NCBI GenBank assembly: GCA_017938145.1
Contig: JAGBCB010000020.1
Span: forward strand, 1 to 41,822
Direction: 5' to 3'
Origin: Lachnospiraceae bacterium
GTDB taxonomy: Bacteria > Bacillota > Clostridia > Lachnospirales > Lachnospiraceae
DNA: 41,822 nt
In this document: in pieces, positions 30,686 to 41,624 of the stretch
How positions within the stretch are numbered: position 1 is the first letter of the stretch
Layout: each line of letters starts with the position of its first letter
Translations under genes and position numbers: made by a program
The notes under the pieces: generated by a model
Databases searched by the model: none
Seen by the model: the letters and a program-made list of their open reading frames with translations, nothing else
What the model was told of the DNA's origin: nothing

Positions 30686-32026
30686 ATGAAGAAAAGATTT
30701 TTAAGTATGATATTATGTGGCTGCATGCTTGCAGCAATGGCAGGCTGTGCCGGAGAAACAACGCAGGATGGTGGTCAGGTAACAAACATTCCGGTGGAAG
30801 ATTTGGCTGACGGAGATTTGCCTGCAGAAGCACCGGAAACTTTGTCTTCTGAAACGGTAGACCTTATGGACGGCATCGAACTGATGTCTACGGAATGGAG
30901 CGACAATTTTCCGGAGCATCCGATTACTCAGTTTGGCGTGCCAATGTTCCAGAATGCCTTGAAAGCGGCAGGGAATGGTGAAAATGTGTTGGTTTCCCCA
31001 ATGTCAGCCTGGACGGCACTTTGTATGGTAGAGGCAGGTGCAAAGGGAGAAACAAAGCGGCAGATGCAGGAGGTCCTGGCCATTACCGAGGGTGATTACC
31101 TTACCTACGCAAAGAAGTTTACTTTCCTGCTTCCAAACAAAGACAATTATAAGGTACACATGGCCAACGGCATCTGGTACAAGAATGTGCCAAGTCTTCA
31201 TGTAAATGATTACTTTTTGCAGTACAACAAAACCTTTTTTGATGCAGCAGCCTATAAGGCGCCGTTTGACGATAGTACCCTGCAAAACATCAACAACTGG
31301 GTTTCTGAAAACACCGACGGCATGATTCCGGGCATCCTGGAAGAAATCGATCCAACGGACGTAATTTATCTGGTAAATGCCTTAAGCTTTGATGCAAGAT
31401 GGGGCAAGATTTACAGCGAAACCGACATCTGGAATGATATTTTCACCACGGAGGCCGGTGAAGAAAAGCTGGTTTCCATGATGCATTCCGACGAAAATCT
31501 GTATCTGGAGGATGAGAATACCACCGGCTTTATCAAATATTATTACGACAAAGAGTACGCTTTTGTGGCGTTGCTCCCGGAAGAAGGATTGACCATGGCA
31601 GAATATGTGGAGAGCCTGACCGCAGAAAAGCTTCGGGCACTTTTCAACGGCAAAATACCGACAGAAGTAAAAGCAACCATGCCGAAGTTCTCGGTGGACT
31701 ATGGTTTTAACATGAATAACATTTTACAGCAGATGGGTATGACGGATGCATTTTCCGACAGTGCGGCCGATTTCACCGCTATGGCAACTTCCGACTCAGG
31801 AAACATTTATGTGGGCAGCGTGGACCAGAAGTGCTTTCTTGCAGTGGATGAGTACGGCACCAAGGCCGGCGCAGCAACCGCAGTGGCAATGCAGAATAAG
31901 GCCCTGTCATCGCAGCCGGTAAAGGTAGTCAACTTAAACCGTCCGTTTGTGTATCTGATTGTGGAATGTGATAATTTCGAGCCGATGTTTATGGGCACGG
32001 TAATGAATGTGGAGGAAACAAAATGA
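30686..32026 (+). CDS. Serpin-family protease inhibitor, lipoprotein
   Basis: A 446-residue protein with a signal peptide and lipobox (MAGC, C21), an acidic linker (to about 70), then a full serpin fold. Landmarks are NVLVSPMSAWTALCMVEAGAKGET, NALSFDARWG (NALYFKAxW motif), and near the C-terminus LNRPFVYLIVE (NRPFLFLI motif). The reactive-centre hinge EYGTKAGAATAVAMQ has small residues at P12-P8, as in inhibitory serpins. Counting from the hinge puts P1 near Lys in MQNKALSS, but this is approximate. As a surface lipoprotein it would trap exogenous serine or cysteine proteases, perhaps host gut enzymes. Confidence 0.9.
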   Translation: MKKRFLSMILCGCMLAAMAGCAGETTQDGGQVTNIPVEDLADGDLPAEAPETLSSETVDLMDGIELMSTEWSDNFPEHPITQFGVPMFQNALKAAGNGENVLVSPMSAWTALCMVEAGAKGETKRQMQEVLAITEGDYLTYAKKFTFLLPNKDNYKVHMANGIWYKNVPSLHVNDYFLQYNKTFFDAAAYKAPFDDSTLQNINNWVSENTDGMIPGILEEIDPTDVIYLVNALSFDARWGKIYSETDIWNDIFTTEAGEEKLVSMMHSDENLYLEDENTTGFIKYYYDKEYAFVALLPEEGLTMAEYVESLTAEKLRALFNGKIPTEVKATMPKFSVDYGFNMNNILQQMGMTDAFSDSAADFTAMATSDSGNIYVGSVDQKCFLAVDEYGTKAGAATAVAMQNKALSSQPVKVVNLNRPFVYLIVECDNFEPMFMGTVMNVEETK

Positions 32027-32196
32027 CCCAGTGTGAAGAATGCCAGTACTACGCTTACGACGAAGACTACGAGGCATATATGTGCGAAATGAATATGGAC
32101 GAGGACGAGTACGCAAGGCTTGTGTCCGGGCACCGACAGTCCTGCCCATATTATAAGAGAGGAGATGAATACTTCATTGTCAGAAAACAGATGTAA
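32023..32196 (+). CDS. DUF6472-type small four-cysteine protein
   Basis: A 57-residue protein overlapping the serpin stop as ATGA, with GGAGG upstream inside that gene. It has C4-x2-C7, C21 and C41, a spacing suited to one metal ion, in a highly acidic context (DEDYEAYMCEMNMDEDEYAR), and ends SCPYYKRGDEYFIVRKQ. This matches the small DUF6472 family common in Clostridia. Role unknown. Confidence 0.75.
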   Translation: MTQCEECQYYAYDEDYEAYMCEMNMDEDEYARLVSGHRQSCPYYKRGDEYFIVRKQM

Positions 32197-32923
32197 GTTT
32201 GGAATCACTTCTTTTGTATTGCATATCCTGGCCATGGCATTTATGCTCAGCGACCATTTGTGGGCAACAATCATCCCATGGAATGCAGAATGGATGACCT
32301 GTCTCGGACGGCTTGCCTTCCCTATTTTTGCCTTTATGACGGTGGAAGGTTTCTTCCATACCAAAAACCTAAAACGCTATGCAGGAAGACTTTTGTTGTT
32401 TGCCCTTATATCCGAAATTCCGTTTAACCTGATGATGTGCGGCAGGGTGTTTTTTCCGCTCCATCAGAATGTGCTGTGGTGCTTTCTTTTGTGCATTGGC
32501 TTAATGAGTCTTAACGAAAAGGCAAAAGCTACCGGCAAGTGGTGGATTCGGGGCCTTACGGCCGCTGGCACAATTTTGTTTGGAACCGTGGTGGGCATGT
32601 TCTCTTTCATGGATTACATGCATTACGGTGTGTGGATGGTACTGACCTTTTATTTCCTCCGCGGCACAAAGTGGTGGAATTATGCGGGCCAGCTGCTGTT
32701 GATGATTCTGATAAACAAAGAAGTGGGCGGCATGGTCTATCAGTGGGAACTGTTTGGACACATGTTTGAGGTACGACAGCAGTACTTCGCCGTTCTTGCC
32801 CTGGTGCCAATCTGGCTGTATAACGGCAAGCAGGGGTATCACAGCAAGTGGTTCCAGTATTTTTGCTATGCCTTCTATCCGGCACATATTTTGATTTTGT
32901 GGCTGTTGATGATGATATTTTAG
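32165..32923 (+). CDS. TraX family membrane protein
   Basis: A 252-residue polytopic protein with about seven helices. It begins after a short polar tail with ITSFVLHILAMAFMLSDHLW, followed by CLGRLAFPIFAFMTVEGFFH(T), the signature block of TraX proteins. FYAFYPAHILILWLL-like residues (CYAFYPAHILI) end the protein as in relatives. F-plasmid TraX acetylates pilin, but most chromosomal Firmicute members are uncharacterised acyltransferase-like proteins. It overlaps the DUF6472 gene by 32 bp. The GAGAGGAG site is unusually close to the ATG. Confidence 0.8.
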   Translation: MNTSLSENRCKFGITSFVLHILAMAFMLSDHLWATIIPWNAEWMTCLGRLAFPIFAFMTVEGFFHTKNLKRYAGRLLLFALISEIPFNLMMCGRVFFPLHQNVLWCFLLCIGLMSLNEKAKATGKWWIRGLTAAGTILFGTVVGMFSFMDYMHYGVWMVLTFYFLRGTKWWNYAGQLLLMILINKEVGGMVYQWELFGHMFEVRQQYFAVLALVPIWLYNGKQGYHSKWFQYFCYAFYPAHILILWLLMMIF

Positions 32924-33332: not shown

Positions 33333-34460
33333 ATGCAACTCCCTTACTCTGAAACGCTGGACATCCAGTACTTGGGCAAGTTTTTTGAAAATACAAGTGA
33401 ATGTTACAAACTTTTCTGGTTCAAGGCAATTATGACAAAGTTGGACGAGGGAAAGACGGAACTCACTTTTGAAGAACTTGTAGATGAAATGATTGCTGAT
33501 GCCTGGTATATGGTGTCAGAATATCATTTGAATCTAGGACCACGAGATAATCTGGAGCGCTTGGTGCACTATATGCATGAGATTACGGGAATGAAATCGG
33601 CAGAGGATAAGCAGACTATCCTCAAATACCTTAGAGAATGCAACGATAGAGAGATTATACGCTATAAAAAGATATTGATTGATAACGTTCCATACCGATT
33701 ACAGGCTCCACTTATGACAGAATTACGTAGTTCAGAATTGGATGGAAATGTAATATTACGAATTGAGAGGATAAATCGGCAGACACATTTGCTGTATTAT
33801 TTTGGAGTATATGATGGACTTGGCACTATGATACGATTGCAGGAAGATTGGGTGCGGTATTTGCAGAAAAATCGAGCTGTGATTCTAGGTTGGTTACAGT
33901 ACCATATGATTCGATATTTACAGAGAAGAAATCCGAGTGTGCCGGGCATTGCTGATAAATTGTATCCGCCGCAAGAACGTAACTTAAAACGAGTAATACA
34001 GTATTGGAAATTAATTGCGGAATTGCAGCCTGTAAAAGAGATTTATGGAAATAATATAATTACGCCACAGCAAATGTCAATTGACCATTTTGTGCCGTGG
34101 TCTTATGTGGCTCATGATGAATTCTGGAATCTGCATCCAACTACAAAAAGCATAAACAGTAGCAAGAGTAATCATTTGGCAGATTGGGAGACATACTTTA
34201 CAGGATTGGCAAATTTGCAATACGAATCGTATCAAATGATGTGGCAGTATGAAGCGGTGCGAAAAGAATTTGATACGTGTGCGCGTGAGCATCTGAACAA
34301 TGAAGAAATTGAGTATCGTCTATATCGTCAGGAAGGACTAGAACGGGAACCGTTTGCAAATATGTTAGCAGACATTATTCGTCCTGTGTATAATGCGGCA
34401 CAGAACAGTGGATTTGGAAGGTGGATATATCAAAGTGAACAGCACAATCAATTATTATAA
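33333..34460 (+). CDS. HNH endonuclease domain protein
   Basis: A 375-residue protein. A helical N-terminal region of about 240 residues has no recognised domain. The HNH block follows: MSIDHFVPWSYVAHDEFWNL (D251, H252; W256 in the VPWS turn), then HPTTKSINSSKSNHLADW with N275, K278 and N280. This D-H...N...N/K arrangement is a metal-dependent beta-beta-alpha nuclease core. GAGAGG precedes the ATG. It overlaps the methyltransferase gene by 26 bp, indicating a joint function. AT-rich composition and position next to tRNA-Ser suggest horizontal origin. Confidence 0.82.
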   Translation: MQLPYSETLDIQYLGKFFENTSECYKLFWFKAIMTKLDEGKTELTFEELVDEMIADAWYMVSEYHLNLGPRDNLERLVHYMHEITGMKSAEDKQTILKYLRECNDREIIRYKKILIDNVPYRLQAPLMTELRSSELDGNVILRIERINRQTHLLYYFGVYDGLGTMIRLQEDWVRYLQKNRAVILGWLQYHMIRYLQRRNPSVPGIADKLYPPQERNLKRVIQYWKLIAELQPVKEIYGNNIITPQQMSIDHFVPWSYVAHDEFWNLHPTTKSINSSKSNHLADWETYFTGLANLQYESYQMMWQYEAVRKEFDTCAREHLNNEEIEYRLYRQEGLEREPFANMLADIIRPVYNAAQNSGFGRWIYQSEQHNQLL

Positions 34461-35016
34461 TAATAACGCTAAAGAATTCTGCAAAGGCACGTTGCAGGCA
34501 GATATGAGCCGGTGTCGTAACATGTTTTTGAAGTACATGGTGCCTAATGGACATATTTTAGATGCAGGTTGTGGCAGTGGCCGTGACAGCAAGGAATTTA
34601 AAGAACTGGGCTATGAAGTGACTGCTTTTGATGCATCTGAGGAAATTTGTCGTTTTGCTGCAGAGTATCTGGGACAGGAGGTGCAGTGCCGCAGATTTGA
34701 GGATGTGATAGAAGAAAACTGCTATGATGGTATTTGGGCTAGTGCTTCGCTTCTTCATGTGGCAAAAAAAGACTTGCCGGAGGTTTTGGCACGACTGAAA
34801 CGTGCCTTGAAAGAAGATGGAATTTTGTACGCATCCTTTAAGTATGGAGAAAACGAGAAGATGCGTGGCGAGCGTAGTTTCAGCGATTTTACTGAGGAGC
34901 AGGCAAAACAATTGTTTTTCGAGAACGGTTTCGAAGTATTGGAATTTGCTCTGACCGGAGATGTAAGAGAAGGCAGAGCAGATGAGATGTGGTGTAATGT
35001 AGTAGGGAGGAAATAA
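34435..35016 (+). CDS. Class I SAM-dependent methyltransferase
   Basis: A 193-residue Rossmann methyltransferase. Motif I is LDAGCGSGRD (42-51), followed by the acidic end of beta2 (AFDAS) and WASASLLHV at the motif IV position. The fold resembles TehB/UbiE-like small-molecule enzymes. It lacks the DPPY/NPPY tetrad of adenine-N6 DNA methyltransferases and a cytosine-C5 PC motif, so it is not a standard modification enzyme. GTG at 34435, with GAAGGTGG upstream, is preferred to the earlier ATG at 34393. It is coupled to the HNH gene. Confidence 0.8.
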   Translation: MNSTINYYNNNAKEFCKGTLQADMSRCRNMFLKYMVPNGHILDAGCGSGRDSKEFKELGYEVTAFDASEEICRFAAEYLGQEVQCRRFEDVIEENCYDGIWASASLLHVAKKDLPEVLARLKRALKEDGILYASFKYGENEKMRGERSFSDFTEEQAKQLFFENGFEVLEFALTGDVREGRADEMWCNVVGRK

Positions 35017-35026
35017 GGTGATTTGT

Positions 35027-35833
35027 ATGGAAAAGGGAAAAGTGAAGGATTTCTTTTGCGCTACAAAAGATGAAATTGTTGATATGACACTGGAAAGTGA
35101 TATGTTGCCGACAGTTATAGCGGATATTGCGGAAACTGTAGTCTCAGAAGGTACTGCAACTATACTGGGAGGAGTTGTAGGTGCAATTGCACCAGGAGTC
35201 AACGGTGCTATGTTGGGATATAGACAGAGGCAATTTGAAAGAAATGTTATGCAGGCAATTACTATTATGGCTCGAAGAATAGAGACAATAGATGCTTTAG
35301 TAGAAAACTTAAGTGATGAAATTTTGGAAAAATTCAGAGGAATATACGTAGAGTGGATGTTGGATAATTTGGATATGGAAAAACAAAAAGAAAAAGTTCC
35401 ATATCATGTTAATGGATTTATTAATTTAATGAGCGATGATGTCAATGATAATTTAATGCGTATGTTTTTTGAAACAATGAATGAGTTAACAGAGTTGGAC
35501 ATAGAAGTTTTGAAAATGTATGATTGGAAAAGTGATGATAATATTTATACATTAGCAGAGAAATATAATTTGGAGTATGAACAAATCGATGTAATAAAAG
35601 AAAAGCTGGCTAGACTAGGATTGTTGAAATGTAAAAATGATGAGCAACGAGATGAAAACCTAGATGGCATAGTTGATTATTTAACTAAATTAGAGAAAGA
35701 CAGTAAGAGTAGAAATCCTAGAGGCGTTAAATTGCCAAGAATTAAGAAGCCTAGTCGTTCACACTTATATTCTATTACTAGATTAGGAACTCACTATTTA
35801 AATTTAATTTCAGAAGAAAAAGTGCAGGAATAA
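35027..35833 (+). CDS. Unrecognised protein: Gly-rich hydrophobic segment plus C-terminal winged helix
   Basis: A 268-residue protein, family not recognised. Residues about 25-65 contain a glycine-rich hydrophobic stretch (GTATILGGVVGAIAPGVNGA) that could insert in membrane. A long helical region (about 70-160) follows. The C-terminal part looks like a winged helix: LTELDIEVLKMYDW, then TLAEKYNLEYEQIDVIKEKL (HTH), and SITRLGTHYLNLI as the wing end. ATG 35027 has AAGGTGAT spaced correctly; a GTG at 35018 is an alternative. It is cotranscribed with the methyltransferase (10-bp gap). Confidence 0.6.
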   Translation: MEKGKVKDFFCATKDEIVDMTLESDMLPTVIADIAETVVSEGTATILGGVVGAIAPGVNGAMLGYRQRQFERNVMQAITIMARRIETIDALVENLSDEILEKFRGIYVEWMLDNLDMEKQKEKVPYHVNGFINLMSDDVNDNLMRMFFETMNELTELDIEVLKMYDWKSDDNIYTLAEKYNLEYEQIDVIKEKLARLGLLKCKNDEQRDENLDGIVDYLTKLEKDSKSRNPRGVKLPRIKKPSRSHLYSITRLGTHYLNLISEEKVQE

Positions 35834-35917
35834 TAAGCAATAATATCAAGTTAGGAGAATGTAGTATTGTAAGTACGGATAAGGAAAGAACCTAACTAAC
35901 AGGAAGGAAGTGAAAAA

Positions 35918-37567
35918 ATGAACCCAACAAACAACTACAATAACTCCCAAGAATCCCAGCAAACCGAATGGAAGTGGTCTTGGCAGGATGAGTATTTAAA
36001 ATGGTTATGCGGCTATGCTAATACAGAAGGCGGCACCTTATACATTGGCGTAAATGATGATGGTTACGTGGTAGGTATCGAAGATTCCAAAAGAATGTTA
36101 GAAAGTATCCCGAATAAGATTAGCGACAAGCTCGGAATCATAGCCAGTATCAATATTCACAGAGCGAATGGTGCGGAAAACGTGCGTTATGATACTTCTG
36201 TGCCGGAAGATATTGCAAGCAAGCTGATTAATCAGTATGCCTGCGGAAGTATCAATACTGGAATGCTGGACAGTACGGATAGACGCTATAAATCTCTTGC
36301 GATTATTGAATGGGAGAATAAGATTTGGGAACTGGCAGATGGCACAAGAGAATATATTTCTATTGAAATTATTAAGTATCCGTTTGCTGTTTCGTGCGAG
36401 GGAAAATATTATAAACGTTCCGGTTCCACATTACATGAACTGAATGGATTCGAATTGCAGAACTTTTTATTAGAACGTGCCGGAAAGACATGGGATGCGG
36501 TTCCGATTCCAGAAGTGAAAGTAGAAGATTTGAGCAAGGATGCACTGGATGCATTCCGAAAGAAAGCTGTAAAAAGTAACAGAATGACAGACAGCGAAGT
36601 AAGTGTTTCTGATGAATTGCTGCTTAGAAATCTGAAACTGTTTGACGGTGAGTATTTAACCAGAGCTGCCATTTTGCTGTTCCATCCAACACCGGAATAT
36701 TTTGTCACCGGTTCCTATATTAAAATTGGATACTTTTCGCTGGTGGGAGCATTTGGTGAGGATGCAGAACCGATAGAAGATTTGCAGTATCAGGACGTTG
36801 TGGACGGACCATTGCTTATGCAGGTGGACAAGGCAATCGACCTGATATTTACCAAGTATTTCAAAGCGTTGGTGGATTATGAGGGCATCCAGCGTACAGA
36901 AACCAATATGCTTACCAGAGGAATTGTTCGTGAACTTTTGCTCAATGCAATCAATCATAAGGATTATGCCACGGGTATTCTTATTCAGGTGTCAGTATAT
37001 GAAGACAAAATAGAGATATTCAATATGGGAACTTGGCCGCAGCGTGTGCCTAAGGATGAAAGGGTATACGATAAACACGAGTCTGTTCCAAATAATCCTA
37101 AAATTGCGGATGTTGCGTTCCGTTCCGGTGATGTGGAATCCTGGGGTAGAGGCTTTTTGAAGATTAAGGCAGAGTGCAAGAGTATAAATGCGCCACTTCC
37201 GGTTATCGATGCAGAAAATGGCGGTGTTTCCATTCGCGCAACAGGATGTGAAAAGTACATGTCAGTGCTGAGATACGGACAGTACGGACATGTGGGTGCT
37301 GATGGAGTTCGAAGAGATGCAGAAGACAATAATTCAATCATTTTTGATGAGCGAATCATGAGCGAAAAAATGAGCGAATTAAAGAAAGAACCAATTATTA
37401 AAATTGTTAATTATTTAAAAGAGAATGCTGAGATTACTACTGCAAAAGGTTCGGAAATCACGGGAAAATCAGAATCACATGTAAAAAGGTATTTTAAGGC
37501 TTTATGCGATTTAGGAATAATAAAGCGAACACGTAGTACTAAGGGAAATGTGTATGTTAAGGTTTGA
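35918..37567 (+). CDS. AlbA_2/Schlafen-like and HATPase domain regulator
   Basis: A 549-residue protein of the family often labelled ATP-dependent DNA helicase-related. An AlbA_2 (Schlafen-like) domain spans about 15-185: WCGYANTEGGTLYIGVND-like residues at 30-48, and YYKRSGSTLHEL at 164-175. A GHKL/HATPase_c_4 domain has N-box E339...N343 (RELLLNAINHKDY) and G-box ESWGRGF (407-413). A C-terminal winged helix (about 488-549) follows a MSEKMSE stretch. It likely acts as an ATP-responsive nucleic-acid-binding regulator; none of these is a helicase motif. AGGAAGGAAG precedes the ATG, and AGTTAGG/CCTAACT (35849/35891) forms an inverted repeat in the leader. Confidence 0.78.
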   Translation: MNPTNNYNNSQESQQTEWKWSWQDEYLKWLCGYANTEGGTLYIGVNDDGYVVGIEDSKRMLESIPNKISDKLGIIASINIHRANGAENVRYDTSVPEDIASKLINQYACGSINTGMLDSTDRRYKSLAIIEWENKIWELADGTREYISIEIIKYPFAVSCEGKYYKRSGSTLHELNGFELQNFLLERAGKTWDAVPIPEVKVEDLSKDALDAFRKKAVKSNRMTDSEVSVSDELLLRNLKLFDGEYLTRAAILLFHPTPEYFVTGSYIKIGYFSLVGAFGEDAEPIEDLQYQDVVDGPLLMQVDKAIDLIFTKYFKALVDYEGIQRTETNMLTRGIVRELLLNAINHKDYATGILIQVSVYEDKIEIFNMGTWPQRVPKDERVYDKHESVPNNPKIADVAFRSGDVESWGRGFLKIKAECKSINAPLPVIDAENGGVSIRATGCEKYMSVLRYGQYGHVGADGVRRDAEDNNSIIFDERIMSEKMSELKKEPIIKIVNYLKENAEITTAKGSEITGKSESHVKRYFKALCDLGIIKRTRSTKGNVYVKV

Positions 37568-37597
37568 ATAATTCGCTCATTTTTGTGAGCGAATTAT
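37568..37597. terminator. Perfect 12-bp hairpin after the AlbA_2 gene
   Basis: ATAATTCGCTCA and TGAGCGAATTAT pair perfectly around TTTTTG, starting right after the stop. The right arm repeats the TGAGCGAAT boxes that occur inside the gene at 37348-37380, so it may be an operator as well as a terminator. There is no strong T tract after it. Confidence 0.55.
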
Positions 37598-37635
37598 GAG
37601 CGGATACGTAATAAGGTCAGAAGAGGACAAACTAT

Positions 37636-39369
37636 ATGAAATGGTATAATTTGTTTCGGCAACATATTTTGGACAGAGGAATAGAATATTACGAAGACGG
37701 ATATGTTACCGAATTTGCATATTCAGATAATAGGATAACTTCCTTGGTGGACGGAAGTGATACCTATGATGTGGAAATCGAGTTAGATGGCGAAGATGTG
37801 ATTGATATGCATTGTTCCTGTCCTCATGCAGCGGACGGACATAATTGCAAGCATATGGCAGCAGCTTTATTCAAGTTTGAAGAAATATTAGCTCATCAGG
37901 ATGCAGAAATGGATTATGATGCGGCTGAGGGGGACGAAGAACAAGAAGACATTACTCCGCTGGAAGCCTTATTGGAACTCACGAACAAAAGAAAGGCGGA
38001 AGCTGTTGAATTGGTGTCTCAAATTCCAGAGGATAAGGTCAGAGAACTGCTGGTTGGTTTTGTTCTTGCAGATGAGGGACTAAAAAATAAATTATCCCTG
38101 CAATATGCGTTTAAAATGAACAGTAAACTTATGCTTGACCTGCGGATGGAACTGGATCAGATTGAGCGGAATTATTGTAGCCGCGGTTTTGTGGACTGGT
38201 ATCATGCCTCTGATTTCACATCCGATTTGTCTGCTTTTTTGGATTCCAGAGTGCAGCTTTTGATTGAAAAGGATTGTCTGAAACAGGCCTTTGAATTAAC
38301 TAATCGTGTGTTTTTCTGTATTGGAAATGTGGATATGGATGATTCTGACGGAACCTCTTCAGGAGTACTAGATTGCTGCTATGAGTTTTGGAAACAAATT
38401 ATTGAAAAAGCGGATGAAAGCTTTAAGCAGGAACTGAAGGTATGGTTTGAAGCTCATCGGACAGGCTATGTTCTGGATTTTATGGATGAATACATAGAGG
38501 AAATTTTATTTGAGGAGTTCGCAACCGAGGAAGATATCATAGAAGAAATTCAAAAACTGGATGCAATTATCGATAAGTGTAAAGGTACGGATTGTGGCAG
38601 ACTCTATTCTGTGCATTACGGATCTGAAAATCCGGTATTAAAAAGAATAGAATACATGAAGAAAAAGGGATGTTCTGAAGATGAAATCCGGGCATACAAA
38701 AAGAAAAATCGTCGCTTCTATGTGATTCGTGAATCTGAAATTGCAGATGCAATGGCTGCGGGCGATTATGAAACGGCTATTAATATTTTACTGGAAAGTA
38801 AGACATTGGATTTAGGTAATCAGGAGCAGATTAAAAAGTATAGTGAGAAATTGATTGATATTTACAAAGAGACAGGCGATATAGAAGCATTCTGCAAGGA
38901 ATCCATATATTTTCTGGAAACATTCTGGCAGTTTGATTTGAAATATGTAACTGCATTGAAGTCCTGTATTCCAGAGAAAGAGCAATGGGAGCGTATTGTA
39001 GATGGAATAATTGCGAAAAATAAGCATGTCGAATTTGTTTGCCGATTGTTAAATAAAGAGAAACGCTATGAGCAGTTGATGACTAAAATTGAAAATAACT
39101 TTGATGGAGTCAGATTATTGGATGAGCATGAAAAGGTACTTCGTAAGCAAATGCCGGACAGAGTGATAAAGGTTTATTCAGACTATTTGGTGAAGGCAGC
39201 AGATGTGGCAAATGATCGCAATAAATATAAGAGTCTCATGATATATCTGAAAAAGATTTCTGCATGTGCGGGTGGAAAAGAAATTGCGAAAGAAATTGCA
39301 GATACCTGGCGGCAGGTATATAAGCGTAGAAGTGCCATGATGGATGAAATGCGTAAAATGGGCTTCTAG
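37636..39369 (+). CDS. SWIM zinc-finger protein
   Basis: A 577-residue protein with an N-terminal SWIM motif, C60-x-C62...C71-x-H73 (MHCSCPHAADGHNCKHMAAA), a zinc-binding module for nucleic acid or protein contact. The remaining 480 residues are helical with a TPR-like character (AIADAMAAGDYETAINILLE-type segments), and no helicase domain is fused, although SWIM domains often accompany Snf2 helicases. AGAGGA is upstream. No partner helicase is visible nearby. Function unassigned. Confidence 0.75.
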   Translation: MKWYNLFRQHILDRGIEYYEDGYVTEFAYSDNRITSLVDGSDTYDVEIELDGEDVIDMHCSCPHAADGHNCKHMAAALFKFEEILAHQDAEMDYDAAEGDEEQEDITPLEALLELTNKRKAEAVELVSQIPEDKVRELLVGFVLADEGLKNKLSLQYAFKMNSKLMLDLRMELDQIERNYCSRGFVDWYHASDFTSDLSAFLDSRVQLLIEKDCLKQAFELTNRVFFCIGNVDMDDSDGTSSGVLDCCYEFWKQIIEKADESFKQELKVWFEAHRTGYVLDFMDEYIEEILFEEFATEEDIIEEIQKLDAIIDKCKGTDCGRLYSVHYGSENPVLKRIEYMKKKGCSEDEIRAYKKKNRRFYVIRESEIADAMAAGDYETAINILLESKTLDLGNQEQIKKYSEKLIDIYKETGDIEAFCKESIYFLETFWQFDLKYVTALKSCIPEKEQWERIVDGIIAKNKHVEFVCRLLNKEKRYEQLMTKIENNFDGVRLLDEHEKVLRKQMPDRVIKVYSDYLVKAADVANDRNKYKSLMIYLKKISACAGGKEIAKEIADTWRQVYKRRSAMMDEMRKMGF

Positions 39370-39485
39370 AATGATTGGAGATACTTATGAAAAATGATTG
39401 ACGGTGTTATTAAAAATGAATAAAAATAATATATGGTATTATCTATACCAAAACAGGAAGAATAATACTATGATATATAAACAAC

Positions 39486-39517
39486 TTGATTTATTATGAT
39501 ATTTATGATATCATAAA
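39486..39517 (+). promoter_or_regulatory. Promoter and overlapping operator of the XRE-ImmA-PIN operon
   Basis: TTGATT (39486-39491), a 17-bp spacer and TATCAT (39509-39514). The -10 lies within a perfect 16-bp palindrome, TTTATGATATCATAAA (39502-39517), preceded by a further half-site TTATGAT at 39494-39500. This fits autorepression by the first gene's product. Confidence 0.7.
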
Positions 39518-39552
39518 GGCGCGGCTGTTTACTTTTGAAAGGGGATATTATC

Positions 39553-39900
39553 ATGAAACGCTTATCGCAGGAGAAAATGATAGAAATTGTAAAGCAATTG
39601 AGAAAATCAAAAGGATTAACACAAGAACAACTGAGCGACGAAACAGGTATCAACCGGCAGATGATAGGAAGATTAGAAAAAAAGGAATATATGCCATCAA
39701 TTTCTCAGTTGGAAAAATTGGCTGAAGTTTTGGGCTTTAGTATTCCTGATTTATATGTAGAAAATGAACCGATGATTTATACTGCTTATCGTAGTTCCAG
39801 TATGTCAGAAGAAGAACGCAAAGGTGTGAAGCACATGTTTGAAATGATGATGGTTTCCAAGCAGCAACTTCTTTTGAGAAAGGCGATGTTGAATGAGTAA
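39553..39900 (+). CDS. XRE-family HTH regulator, antitoxin-like
   Basis: A 115-residue protein. The HTH spans about 8-62: IVKQLRKSKGLTQEQLSDET, then GINRQMIGRLEKKEYMPSIS (recognition helix), closing LEKLAEVLGFSIPDL. The C-terminal 45 residues form a helical tail that probably contacts the protease partner. ATG 39553 has GAAAGGGGA upstream. It overlaps the ImmA gene by 8 bp. Its operator is predicted at its own promoter. Confidence 0.88.
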   Translation: MKRLSQEKMIEIVKQLRKSKGLTQEQLSDETGINRQMIGRLEKKEYMPSISQLEKLAEVLGFSIPDLYVENEPMIYTAYRSSSMSEEERKGVKHMFEMMMVSKQQLLLRKAMLNE

Positions 39901-40765
39901 GTGCGGTGGCATTGTATTAGATGAAAAGCAAATATATGAAGTGAAAAAATTAGTTTCTGAAACCAGACGATTTTTTGGTGTTCAGACAAATGTTCCGATA
40001 GGGAATGATATTCGACTTCTTTTGGAAAAAAAGGATATTTTGTTATGTGAGTATCCGTTTCCGGATACCAATGGAACTCATACGTATGGGAATATCACTT
40101 GGTTCAAAAATGGTGAAGAGACGATTACGTTTATCGGTTTGAATACATCCAGTTATTATGATGAACAAATTTTTGCTATAGCGCATGAGATATATCATTA
40201 TACGACAAAGTCCGGAAAAGCATATACTCCGGATACGGATGATGAAGATAAGCTTATAGAGAAATGTGCAGACAGATTTGCTGCGGAATTGTTGCTGCCG
40301 GAAGAGGCATTAAGGGATGCTGTAATAGAGACATTTGGTGTTTCTAATATGTTTGATATTTCTGATAACAGAGTACTTCGTTTCATTGCACGAATGCAAT
40401 GTGATTGGTGGCTGCCATTCCAAGCGATTATCAACAGATTATTTGAAGAGGGATTTATAACTGAAAGTCAATATGATAAGTTGTATGAAACAGACTGTCG
40501 CACTGAAGACGGAATGTACAGAAGACTTTTAAAGAGTATCGACTCGGAAATATCAGAGCTTTTAAATAAACGGACAAAAACTATAGGGGTATCGAATAGC
40601 GTTGTAGAAACAATTATTAACAATTACGAAGATGGTTTCATTGATGATGATGAATTTGTTCGTACATTGGCTATGTTTAACAAAAGACCAGAGGATTTTG
40701 GTTTTGATATGGAGGCAGAGTTGGATGACGATTTAATGGATTTCTTCGAAAGTGAGGATGACTAA
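39893..40765 (+). CDS. ImmA/IrrE-family metallopeptidase
   Basis: A 290-residue zinc peptidase (COG2856 type). The active site is HEIYH (H98, E99, H102), with the family's downstream ligand region EKCADRFAAELLLPEEAL (123-140). FIGLNTSSYYDEQIFAIAHE gives the preceding strand and helix. ImmA-type enzymes cleave partner XRE repressors, releasing their operons. A C-terminal extension (about 215-290) is very acidic. It overlaps the regulator by 8 bp and the next gene by 1 bp. Confidence 0.88.
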   Translation: MSKCGGIVLDEKQIYEVKKLVSETRRFFGVQTNVPIGNDIRLLLEKKDILLCEYPFPDTNGTHTYGNITWFKNGEETITFIGLNTSSYYDEQIFAIAHEIYHYTTKSGKAYTPDTDDEDKLIEKCADRFAAELLLPEEALRDAVIETFGVSNMFDISDNRVLRFIARMQCDWWLPFQAIINRLFEEGFITESQYDKLYETDCRTEDGMYRRLLKSIDSEISELLNKRTKTIGVSNSVVETIINNYEDGFIDDDEFVRTLAMFNKRPEDFGFDMEAELDDDLMDFFESEDD

Positions 40766-41466
40766 TGAGGGTAGATACAAAAGCGGTCAATCCGGCTTTT
40801 CAGAGTATCATACAAAATCCAGGTCAGAAGGTATTTTTGGATGCCAACTTCTTTATTCCGCCAGACAGGAGTGAAGTTACAAAGGTAAGGGCTTATTCAT
40901 TTGCAGACTTTAAGGAATGTTGGCTTATTCCGCTGTTAAGTGAATTTGCCGGATTGGTGATACATGAATCGGTGTATGACGAACTAGTTGCTGATAGTGT
41001 AAAGAACTATGCAGATGAACAGAAAAATAGCAATCCGTCTAAACTGAAGGTTCATTACGATTCTGAGCTGAATAGCGCAGAAGATGCATTGCGCAATACG
41101 TATATGAATAGGATTGCTGTTCATTCACAATATAATCCCGCAATAGATAATGCAAAAGATAGAGGCGAAGTAAGATCTTTATCGTTCATGGCAGTGAAAC
41201 AGTTCCTGTTTTTTGCAGCTAACGATTCATTGCCGGTAAGGCTGATTAAAGATGCAGCCAAGTTGAAAACGGGATTAGATAATATGCAGATTGTCCAGAT
41301 GTACGAACTGATATATTATTTGTACAAAACGGACAGATACGATAAAAAAGCGTTAAGAACATTATACAAATACCAGTATTATTTGACACCAGGGGATAAG
41401 CGAGTGAACCCGGATTGGGGAAGTTTCGTAGAGCAGATGGATGCTCTTTATAATGGAATGATGTAA
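40765..41466 (+). CDS. PIN-like domain protein, putative ribonuclease
   Basis: A 233-residue protein with PIN-like acidic landmarks: D26 after a strand (KVFLDANFF), E68 in LVIHESVYDEL, D132/E135 in AKDRGEVRSLSFM and D154 in FFAANDS. This is the D...E...D...D order of metal-dependent RNases. The C-terminal region is helical and Tyr-rich. The start overlaps the protease stop (TAATG), so the three proteins are made together. As the third gene of an XRE-ImmA operon it is the likely effector (inference). Confidence 0.68.
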   Translation: MRVDTKAVNPAFQSIIQNPGQKVFLDANFFIPPDRSEVTKVRAYSFADFKECWLIPLLSEFAGLVIHESVYDELVADSVKNYADEQKNSNPSKLKVHYDSELNSAEDALRNTYMNRIAVHSQYNPAIDNAKDRGEVRSLSFMAVKQFLFFAANDSLPVRLIKDAAKLKTGLDNMQIVQMYELIYYLYKTDRYDKKALRTLYKYQYYLTPGDKRVNPDWGSFVEQMDALYNGMM

Positions 41467-41474
41467 TTATGTGT

Positions 41475-41502
41475 AAGGACTGTGCAGAGATGCATGGTCC
41501 TT
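41475..41502 (+). terminator. Hairpin terminator after the PIN gene
   Basis: AAGGACTGTGCA pairs with TGCATGGTCCTT (two G-U) around loop GAGA. The T tract is weak. A second small hairpin (CTTCAC/GTGAAG) follows near 41511-41531. Confidence 0.65.
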
Positions 41503-41624
41503 GTTTAGCTTCTTCACTTCACAATGTGAAGATTTTCGTAAAACGTTACAGAAAAAAATGTCTATTGGTGGTATTATAGATGCTATGCATATATAAAGGA
41601 TATGTGAGAGGAAAGGAAAGAAAT

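Follow-up and report, generated by a model that had tools for sequence, protein, structure and literature searches.

A mobile XRE–M78 protease–PIN-fold operon as a divergent candidate defence system of the PDC-M69 kind

We analyzed a stretch of 41,822 nt (the window), which is contig C2 of a draft Lachnospiraceae genome (3.24 Mb, 78% complete), and focused on an operon that we consider a candidate stress or defence system. Its three genes, all on the + strand, encode in order an XRE repressor, an M78 (ImmA/IrrE) protease and a protein with a predicted PIN fold. The genes and the hairpins that follow them are:

39553..39900, + strand: XRE-family helix-turn-helix (HTH) repressor, 115 residues; matches to Pfam HTH_3, PADLOC capH and PDC-M69A
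39893..40765, + strand: M78 (ImmA/IrrE/CapP-like) protease, 290 residues, HEIYH at residues 98-102; matches to Pfam PF06114 and PDC-M69B
40765..41466, + strand: protein with a predicted PIN fold, 233 residues, acidic residues D26/E73/E135/D154; match to PDC-M69C, conservation, structure model
41474..41503, + strand: hairpin 3' of the last gene, -18.4 kcal/mol, z -3.9
41511..41532, + strand: terminator-like hairpin with a T-rich tail, from the terminator scan

In agreement with the initial annotation of this DNA, the XRE and protease genes overlap by 8 bp, and the protease gene and the third gene by 1 bp (TAATG). The list of open reading frames (ORFs) holds none of at least 50 residues on the + strand between 41467 and 41750. 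The hairpin described earlier after the last gene is present and strong; our terminator scan, which demands a T-rich tail, lists the next one (41511-41532) instead.

The three proteins

The first two genes were proposed to encode a repressor and the type of protease that cleaves such repressors, and the profile searches bear this out. The XRE protein matched Pfam HTH_3 at E 6.6e-17; among the PADLOC models capH was best (2.3e-13), and other HTH models also outscored PDC-M69A (7.3e-6). The protease matched Pfam Peptidase_M78 (PF06114) at 1.1e-11 and PADLOC PDC-M69B at 2.5e-27, and its residues H98, E99, H102 and E123 were invariant in 12 of 12 aligned proteases. The profile of the protease retrieved IrrE (3dte, E 0.0011) and CapP (7t5t, E 0.0044) from the PDB, and its structure model reached a predicted local distance difference test score (pLDDT) of 82. 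RmrA models in PADLOC also matched the protease (best E 8.5e-12), and both the XRE and the protease parts were matched. The acidic C-terminal tail of the protease is kept in most aligned rows.

The third protein had been called PIN-like. It matched no Pfam family above the cut-off, none of its 28 homologues matched a PIN Pfam model better than E 0.034, and PDB searches with its sequence and its profile gave nothing significant (2lcq, VapC6/Nob1, E 0.75). Structural modelling upheld the fold: the model reached a pLDDT of 91.7, and its best structural alignments were to PIN ribonucleases. PADLOC PDC-M69C matched at 4.4e-8. D26 and E73 are kept in 28/28 aligned third proteins, E135 in 27/28 (the remaining one has D), and the position of D154 carries D or E in 27/28. 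The third protein, as modelled, joins a PIN fold to conserved acidic residues, the combination expected of the PIN superfamily, and this suggests that it may be a ribonuclease. Its nearest named relatives come from metagenome-assembled genomes, with four of five loci from Lachnospiraceae. At one relative, L064 (816-1553), the PIN protein is 98.7% identical to that of L065, and the conserved acid E135 is replaced by K.

A conserved promoter and predicted operators

Upstream of the XRE gene we located the following elements:

39434..39450, no strand assigned: predicted operator O1, TGGTATTATCTATACCA, TGGTAT-N5-ATACCA; exact consensus at the matching position in L006, L007, L009 and L063
39486..39514, + strand: promoter TTGATT-17-TATCAT, from the promoter scan and the comparison of 20 close loci
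39497..39513, no strand assigned: predicted operator O2, TGATATTTATGATATCA, TGATAT-N5-ATATCA, 17 bp, covering the spacer and most of the -10

The promoter pattern TTG-17/18-TATC(A/T)T was found in 16 of the 20 close loci and TTGAC in 12, in a scan with a fixed -10 and without a shuffle control; L006, L068, L015 and L004 lack the pattern. The aligned upstream DNA holds two conserved inverted repeats with the consensus TGRTAY-N5-RTAYCA. We scanned the 200 bp upstream of the XRE start in the same 20 loci (176 bp in L019, 125 bp in L024). At least one operator site was exact in 7/20 and had at most one mismatch in 14/20, as compared with a mean of 0.01 (maximum 1) and 0.35 (maximum 3) loci, respectively, in 300 dinucleotide shuffles. 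Without the five loci nearest the consensus, 2/15 were exact and 9/15 matched with at most one mismatch. With two mismatches allowed, all 20 loci matched, a level that is uninformative because shuffles reached up to 9. At up to one mismatch, none of 22 distant loci, whose start sites are rougher, had a match; exact matches in L038 and L060 fall within the XRE reading frame or at its start and were left uncounted. Across our own genome the operator pattern occurs at 13 places, two of them at the operon, with 20 strand matches against 6 in the reversed control.

With a pattern that was widened after the sequences had been inspected, a second site could be named in 15 loci; the O1-O2 spacing was 62-64 bp in nine of them and 51-52 bp in six. 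That this lies near six or five helical turns is suggestive only.

The initial annotation had placed the -10 in a perfect 16-bp palindrome. This palindrome exists (39502-39517), holds the TATCAT and overlaps O2. As the operator, however, it was rejected: the relatives keep the 17-bp repeat with its 5-nt spacer and mostly lose the 16-bp form, L015 being the exception with a nearly perfect 16-bp palindrome (one mismatch).

A conserved operator inside a conserved promoter agrees with the autorepressor logic proposed earlier, and autorepression at O2 is well supported by these comparisons. The conservation also shows that transcription control is under selection, which bears on the main alternative, namely that the XRE protein or the protease also holds the PIN protein. 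In its full form, the operon would be a protein-level toxin-antitoxin system: the XRE and/or M78 protein would block the PIN protein, a signal-driven protease would destroy or release the block, and transcription would be secondary. Such a block would resemble that of the RmrA antitoxins in RosmerTA, or of VapS on VapC in VapKSC. According to the available text on RosmerTA, protease-domain proteins serve there as antitoxins (PMC10440598), and in that on VapKSC, VapS holds a PIN toxin that, in the model, the VapK kinase releases (PMC13373217). The overlap of the three genes, which favours coupled production, and the acidic tail of the protease point the same way. We regard this toxin-antitoxin explanation as possible, but the conserved operator, by indicating selection on transcription control, counts against it.

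A further leader element, GGGCATACTAT, was seen about 30 bp upstream of the XRE start in L014, L017, L065, L066 and L067, with variants in L016 and L019; in L065 it is accompanied by the palindrome ATACTATAGTAT. It is missing in the subgroup of the studied operon, and perhaps it represents a third operator.

Conservation, mobility and decay of the unit

A conserved three-gene neighbourhood had been named as a check, and we found one. Relatives of the third protein occur in 9/398 genomes of the phylum and 9/299 of the family, with our own genome and G142 common to both sets; the search gave in total 16 genomes and 17 loci, the studied operon and a second copy in its genome included. L005 was dropped before counting since its three proteins carry accession numbers identical to those of L004. 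By single-query blastp, the protease gene lies directly upstream of the third gene in 17/17 loci. The XRE gene was found in 13/17 by blastp and in 17/17 with a profile built partly from some of these same loci. The PDC-M69C profile matched in 28/398 phylum genomes (our own included) and in 0/14 control genomes. Of the 29 loci fetched with it, five of which are also among the 17, both partner genes were present in 27; the misses were L034, at a contig end, and L058, with a 632-residue frame of another kind. Three further match places (G319:C53, G210:C61 and G201:C29) gave no locus and stand outside the 29. In a set of 25 chosen loci, the distances calculated for the three proteins are correlated (rho 0.52-0.64; the permutations reached at most 0.30-0.34), which fits joint descent.

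The borders of the operon were then defined by blastn of the window. DNA shared with L006 runs from 39434 to 41460 and that shared with L007 from 39433 to 41479. Shared DNA starts at 39427 in L009 and at 39408 in L063 and ends at 41468 in L008; the opposite ends of these three matches coincide with contig ends or lie close to them. In L010 the match is confined to the operon, and L009 has one stray match of 43 bases elsewhere. Four loci thus show the left border and three the right one, with unrelated flanks. On this comparison, with shared DNA ending at its borders, the operon is a self-contained mobile cassette. A chance association of the third gene with the other two was considered and ruled out by the 17/17 linkage, the 27/29 profile loci and the operon-limited shared DNA.

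The surroundings of the relatives also speak of mobility. Scans of viral contigs, which may carry host flanks, yielded seven close loci and one distant locus. Two relatives are on plasmids; one, L004, is on a Paenibacillus plasmid with a tyrosine recombinase gene downstream. L065 and L067 carry large serine recombinases alongside the operon; L064 and L066 were outside the Pfam scan of flanks. In the distant locus L069 the operon has a phage DNA helicase gene on one side and an HNH endonuclease gene on the other, and in the near locus L063 phage helicase and HNH genes precede it, the contig ending after the operon. These two stretches of phage-like DNA carry the same helicase and HNH families in a different order, a hint of a common cargo region. 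When the third protein and the protease were used as single queries against viral contigs, no relative was found, and tblastn of phage records with the third protein gave no match. The protease had no relative at E 0.001 in the three other genomes of the genus, two of them 86% complete; in the sister genome G692 the syntenic contig ends before the operon region.

Copies in viral contigs and beside recombinases would also be expected if the first two genes were a regulatory pair of the ImmR/ImmA type serving a mobile element; the PIN-fold protein would then be an accessory factor in RNA processing and no toxin. ImmA is described as cleaving the ImmR repressor of a Bacillus mobile element (PMC2701414, available text). 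We judge this explanation unlikely. The sharp borders in unrelated surroundings oppose it, since they suggest that the operon acts on its own expression and not on that of a neighbour, and so does a decay that hits the third gene, which fits a cost.

This decay was evaluated in 18 close loci (the studied operon, L004, L006, L007, L012-L017, L019, L023, L024, L062 and L065-L068), the count leaving out L008, L009, L010, L063 and L064 for their contig ends. Six of them (L007, L014, L016, L017, L019 and L024) have a PIN gene that is interrupted or has lost a part, and in none are the XRE and protease genes interrupted. The probability that all six interruptions would fall in the PIN gene by coding length alone is 0.0024, in a test made after first sight of the broken copies. 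L010 has no identifiable XRE gene, a protease gene without its 5' part and a shortened third gene; if it is scored as a hit in each of the three, P rises to 0.014. Broken copies are harder to find, because the loci were found by PIN sequence. The pattern fits an effector that carries a cost while its repressor is retained, with the caveat that assembly errors and common ancestry make the figure less firm. The same broken copies would suit an inactive PIN-fold protein in a decaying remnant. For the studied locus we find that highly improbable, because none of its three frames is interrupted, its PIN-fold protein has the acidic residues, and its promoter and operators agree with the consensus.

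Next to the operon, the upstream genes at 33333-39369 encode an HNH endonuclease, a small methyltransferase (PADLOC mad2, 5.5e-18), a protein of unknown kind, a Schlafen/AlbA_2-ATPase protein and a SWIM zinc-finger protein, the last matching part of PDC-S62 (4.6e-13). It is possible that this cluster is a defence island adjoining the operon. A DNA search with the SWIM gene found no match in the three other genomes of the genus. Further upstream (30686-32923) lies a gene for a bacterial serpin (PF00079, 6.1e-84), with one for a TraX protein after it.

Proposed mechanism and relation to known systems

Our model, which we hold with moderate confidence, is that the operon is a self-contained mobile stress or defence system of the PDC-M69 kind, in which a signal would lead through repressor cleavage and induction to a PIN ribonuclease. 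An XRE dimer would sit on O2, across the spacer and the -10, and on O1 upstream, and so keep its own genes repressed. The M78 protease would be activated by a signal, most likely single-stranded DNA as with CapP and PprI; it would then cleave the XRE protein and so induce the operon. The translationally coupled PIN protein would then accumulate and cut RNA, and growth arrest or limitation of a phage might follow, to the presumed benefit of the host. We infer the cleavage step by analogy with PprI-DdrO and CapP-CapH. For PprI-DdrO, the available text reports experiments in which single-stranded DNA activates cleavage of the repressor by the protease (PMC10904395), and the protease-repressor mechanism of CapP-CapH is cited as experimental (PMC13373217). 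The unit is compact and portable, its borders are sharp, its promoter and operator are defined, and its genome has another, distinct copy, so that cleavage, induction and toxicity are directly testable. If the PIN protein is toxic, it would represent an effector family too divergent for the Pfam PIN models.

The three-component idea has been a prediction since 2009. In the available text of Makarova et al. 2009 (PMC2701414), fused COG2856-Xre genes often adjoin PIN or RelE toxins, a three-component system with a protease cleaving the Xre repressor is suggested, and experimental validation is called for. The studied operon, with an Xre HTH protein, a COG2856/M78 protease and a PIN protein, has the same gene content and the same proposed logic; HTH and protease were fused in more than half of those cases, whereas they are separate genes here. 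The 2023 NetFlax paper, as far as its text was available, likewise associates ImmA protease domains with PIN-like domains (PMC10440598). The suggestion that a coupled PIN effector is less described therefore does not hold, given these two papers and PADLOC PDC-M69A/B/C. Nor is RosmerTA just an XRE-COG2856 pair: from the same NetFlax text, it is a toxin with a protease-domain antitoxin. It likewise combines an M78 protease protein, often with an HTH, with a separate toxin, but HTH and protease are separate here, and the RosmerTA toxin assayed was a membrane toxin. Membership in VapBC was rejected, the partners being XRE and M78 proteins, with no extra ORF of at least 50 residues on the + strand downstream as far as 41750 and no PIN Pfam match better than the level given above.

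CapH-CapP, found in the cyclic-oligonucleotide-based anti-phage signaling system (CBASS) and other immune operons, places the same XRE and M78 protease pair at the head of an effector operon. The gene pair here shares this identity (capH and capP model matches, 7t5t by profile); in contrast to those operons, a lone PIN-fold protein serves here as the predicted effector. VapKSC (EMBO J 2026, PMC13373217), in its available text, is likewise a three-gene operon with two-part control over a PIN toxin, for which phage protection was shown; its control consists of a kinase and a STAS protein, instead of a protease and an XRE repressor. More speculatively, the operon might be a proteolytic counterpart of VapKSC, an idea we find doubtful. 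The protease would both derepress the operon and free a PIN protein held by repressor or protease, the two operators about five to six turns apart would form a sharp switch, and the repressor-protease pair would remain as an immunity remnant where the PIN gene decayed.

Also among the closest known systems is PDC-M69, a phage defence candidate of PADLOC-DB 2.0.0 (PDLC04775-04777) with the same three proteins. Its C model matched 28/28 aligned third proteins, and its A, B and C models were found adjacent and in order at the studied operon, with A and C weak by E value, PADLOC calling thresholds being outside this comparison. At C1:3625-5333 the genome has another PDC-M69 operon, this one canonical (L086; E 3.7e-41, 1.2e-90 and 1.5e-68), and the same stretch carries what we take to be a transposase-like gene and a gene resembling DNA polymerase I. 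According to the available text of a B. cereus survey (PMC11811056), PDC systems are unpublished candidates from Payne et al. 2021; a literature search for the term PDC-M69 found no paper, and no experiment on a system of this kind came to light, preprints and most subscription papers being outside its reach. Relative to PDC-M69, the studied copy is divergent (A 7.3e-6, B 2.5e-27, C 4.4e-8), its PIN protein, at 233 residues, exceeds the 188 positions of the model, and the operator is particular to its subfamily. The arrangement is already predicted and candidate-listed, and the studied operon is a divergent representative of it.
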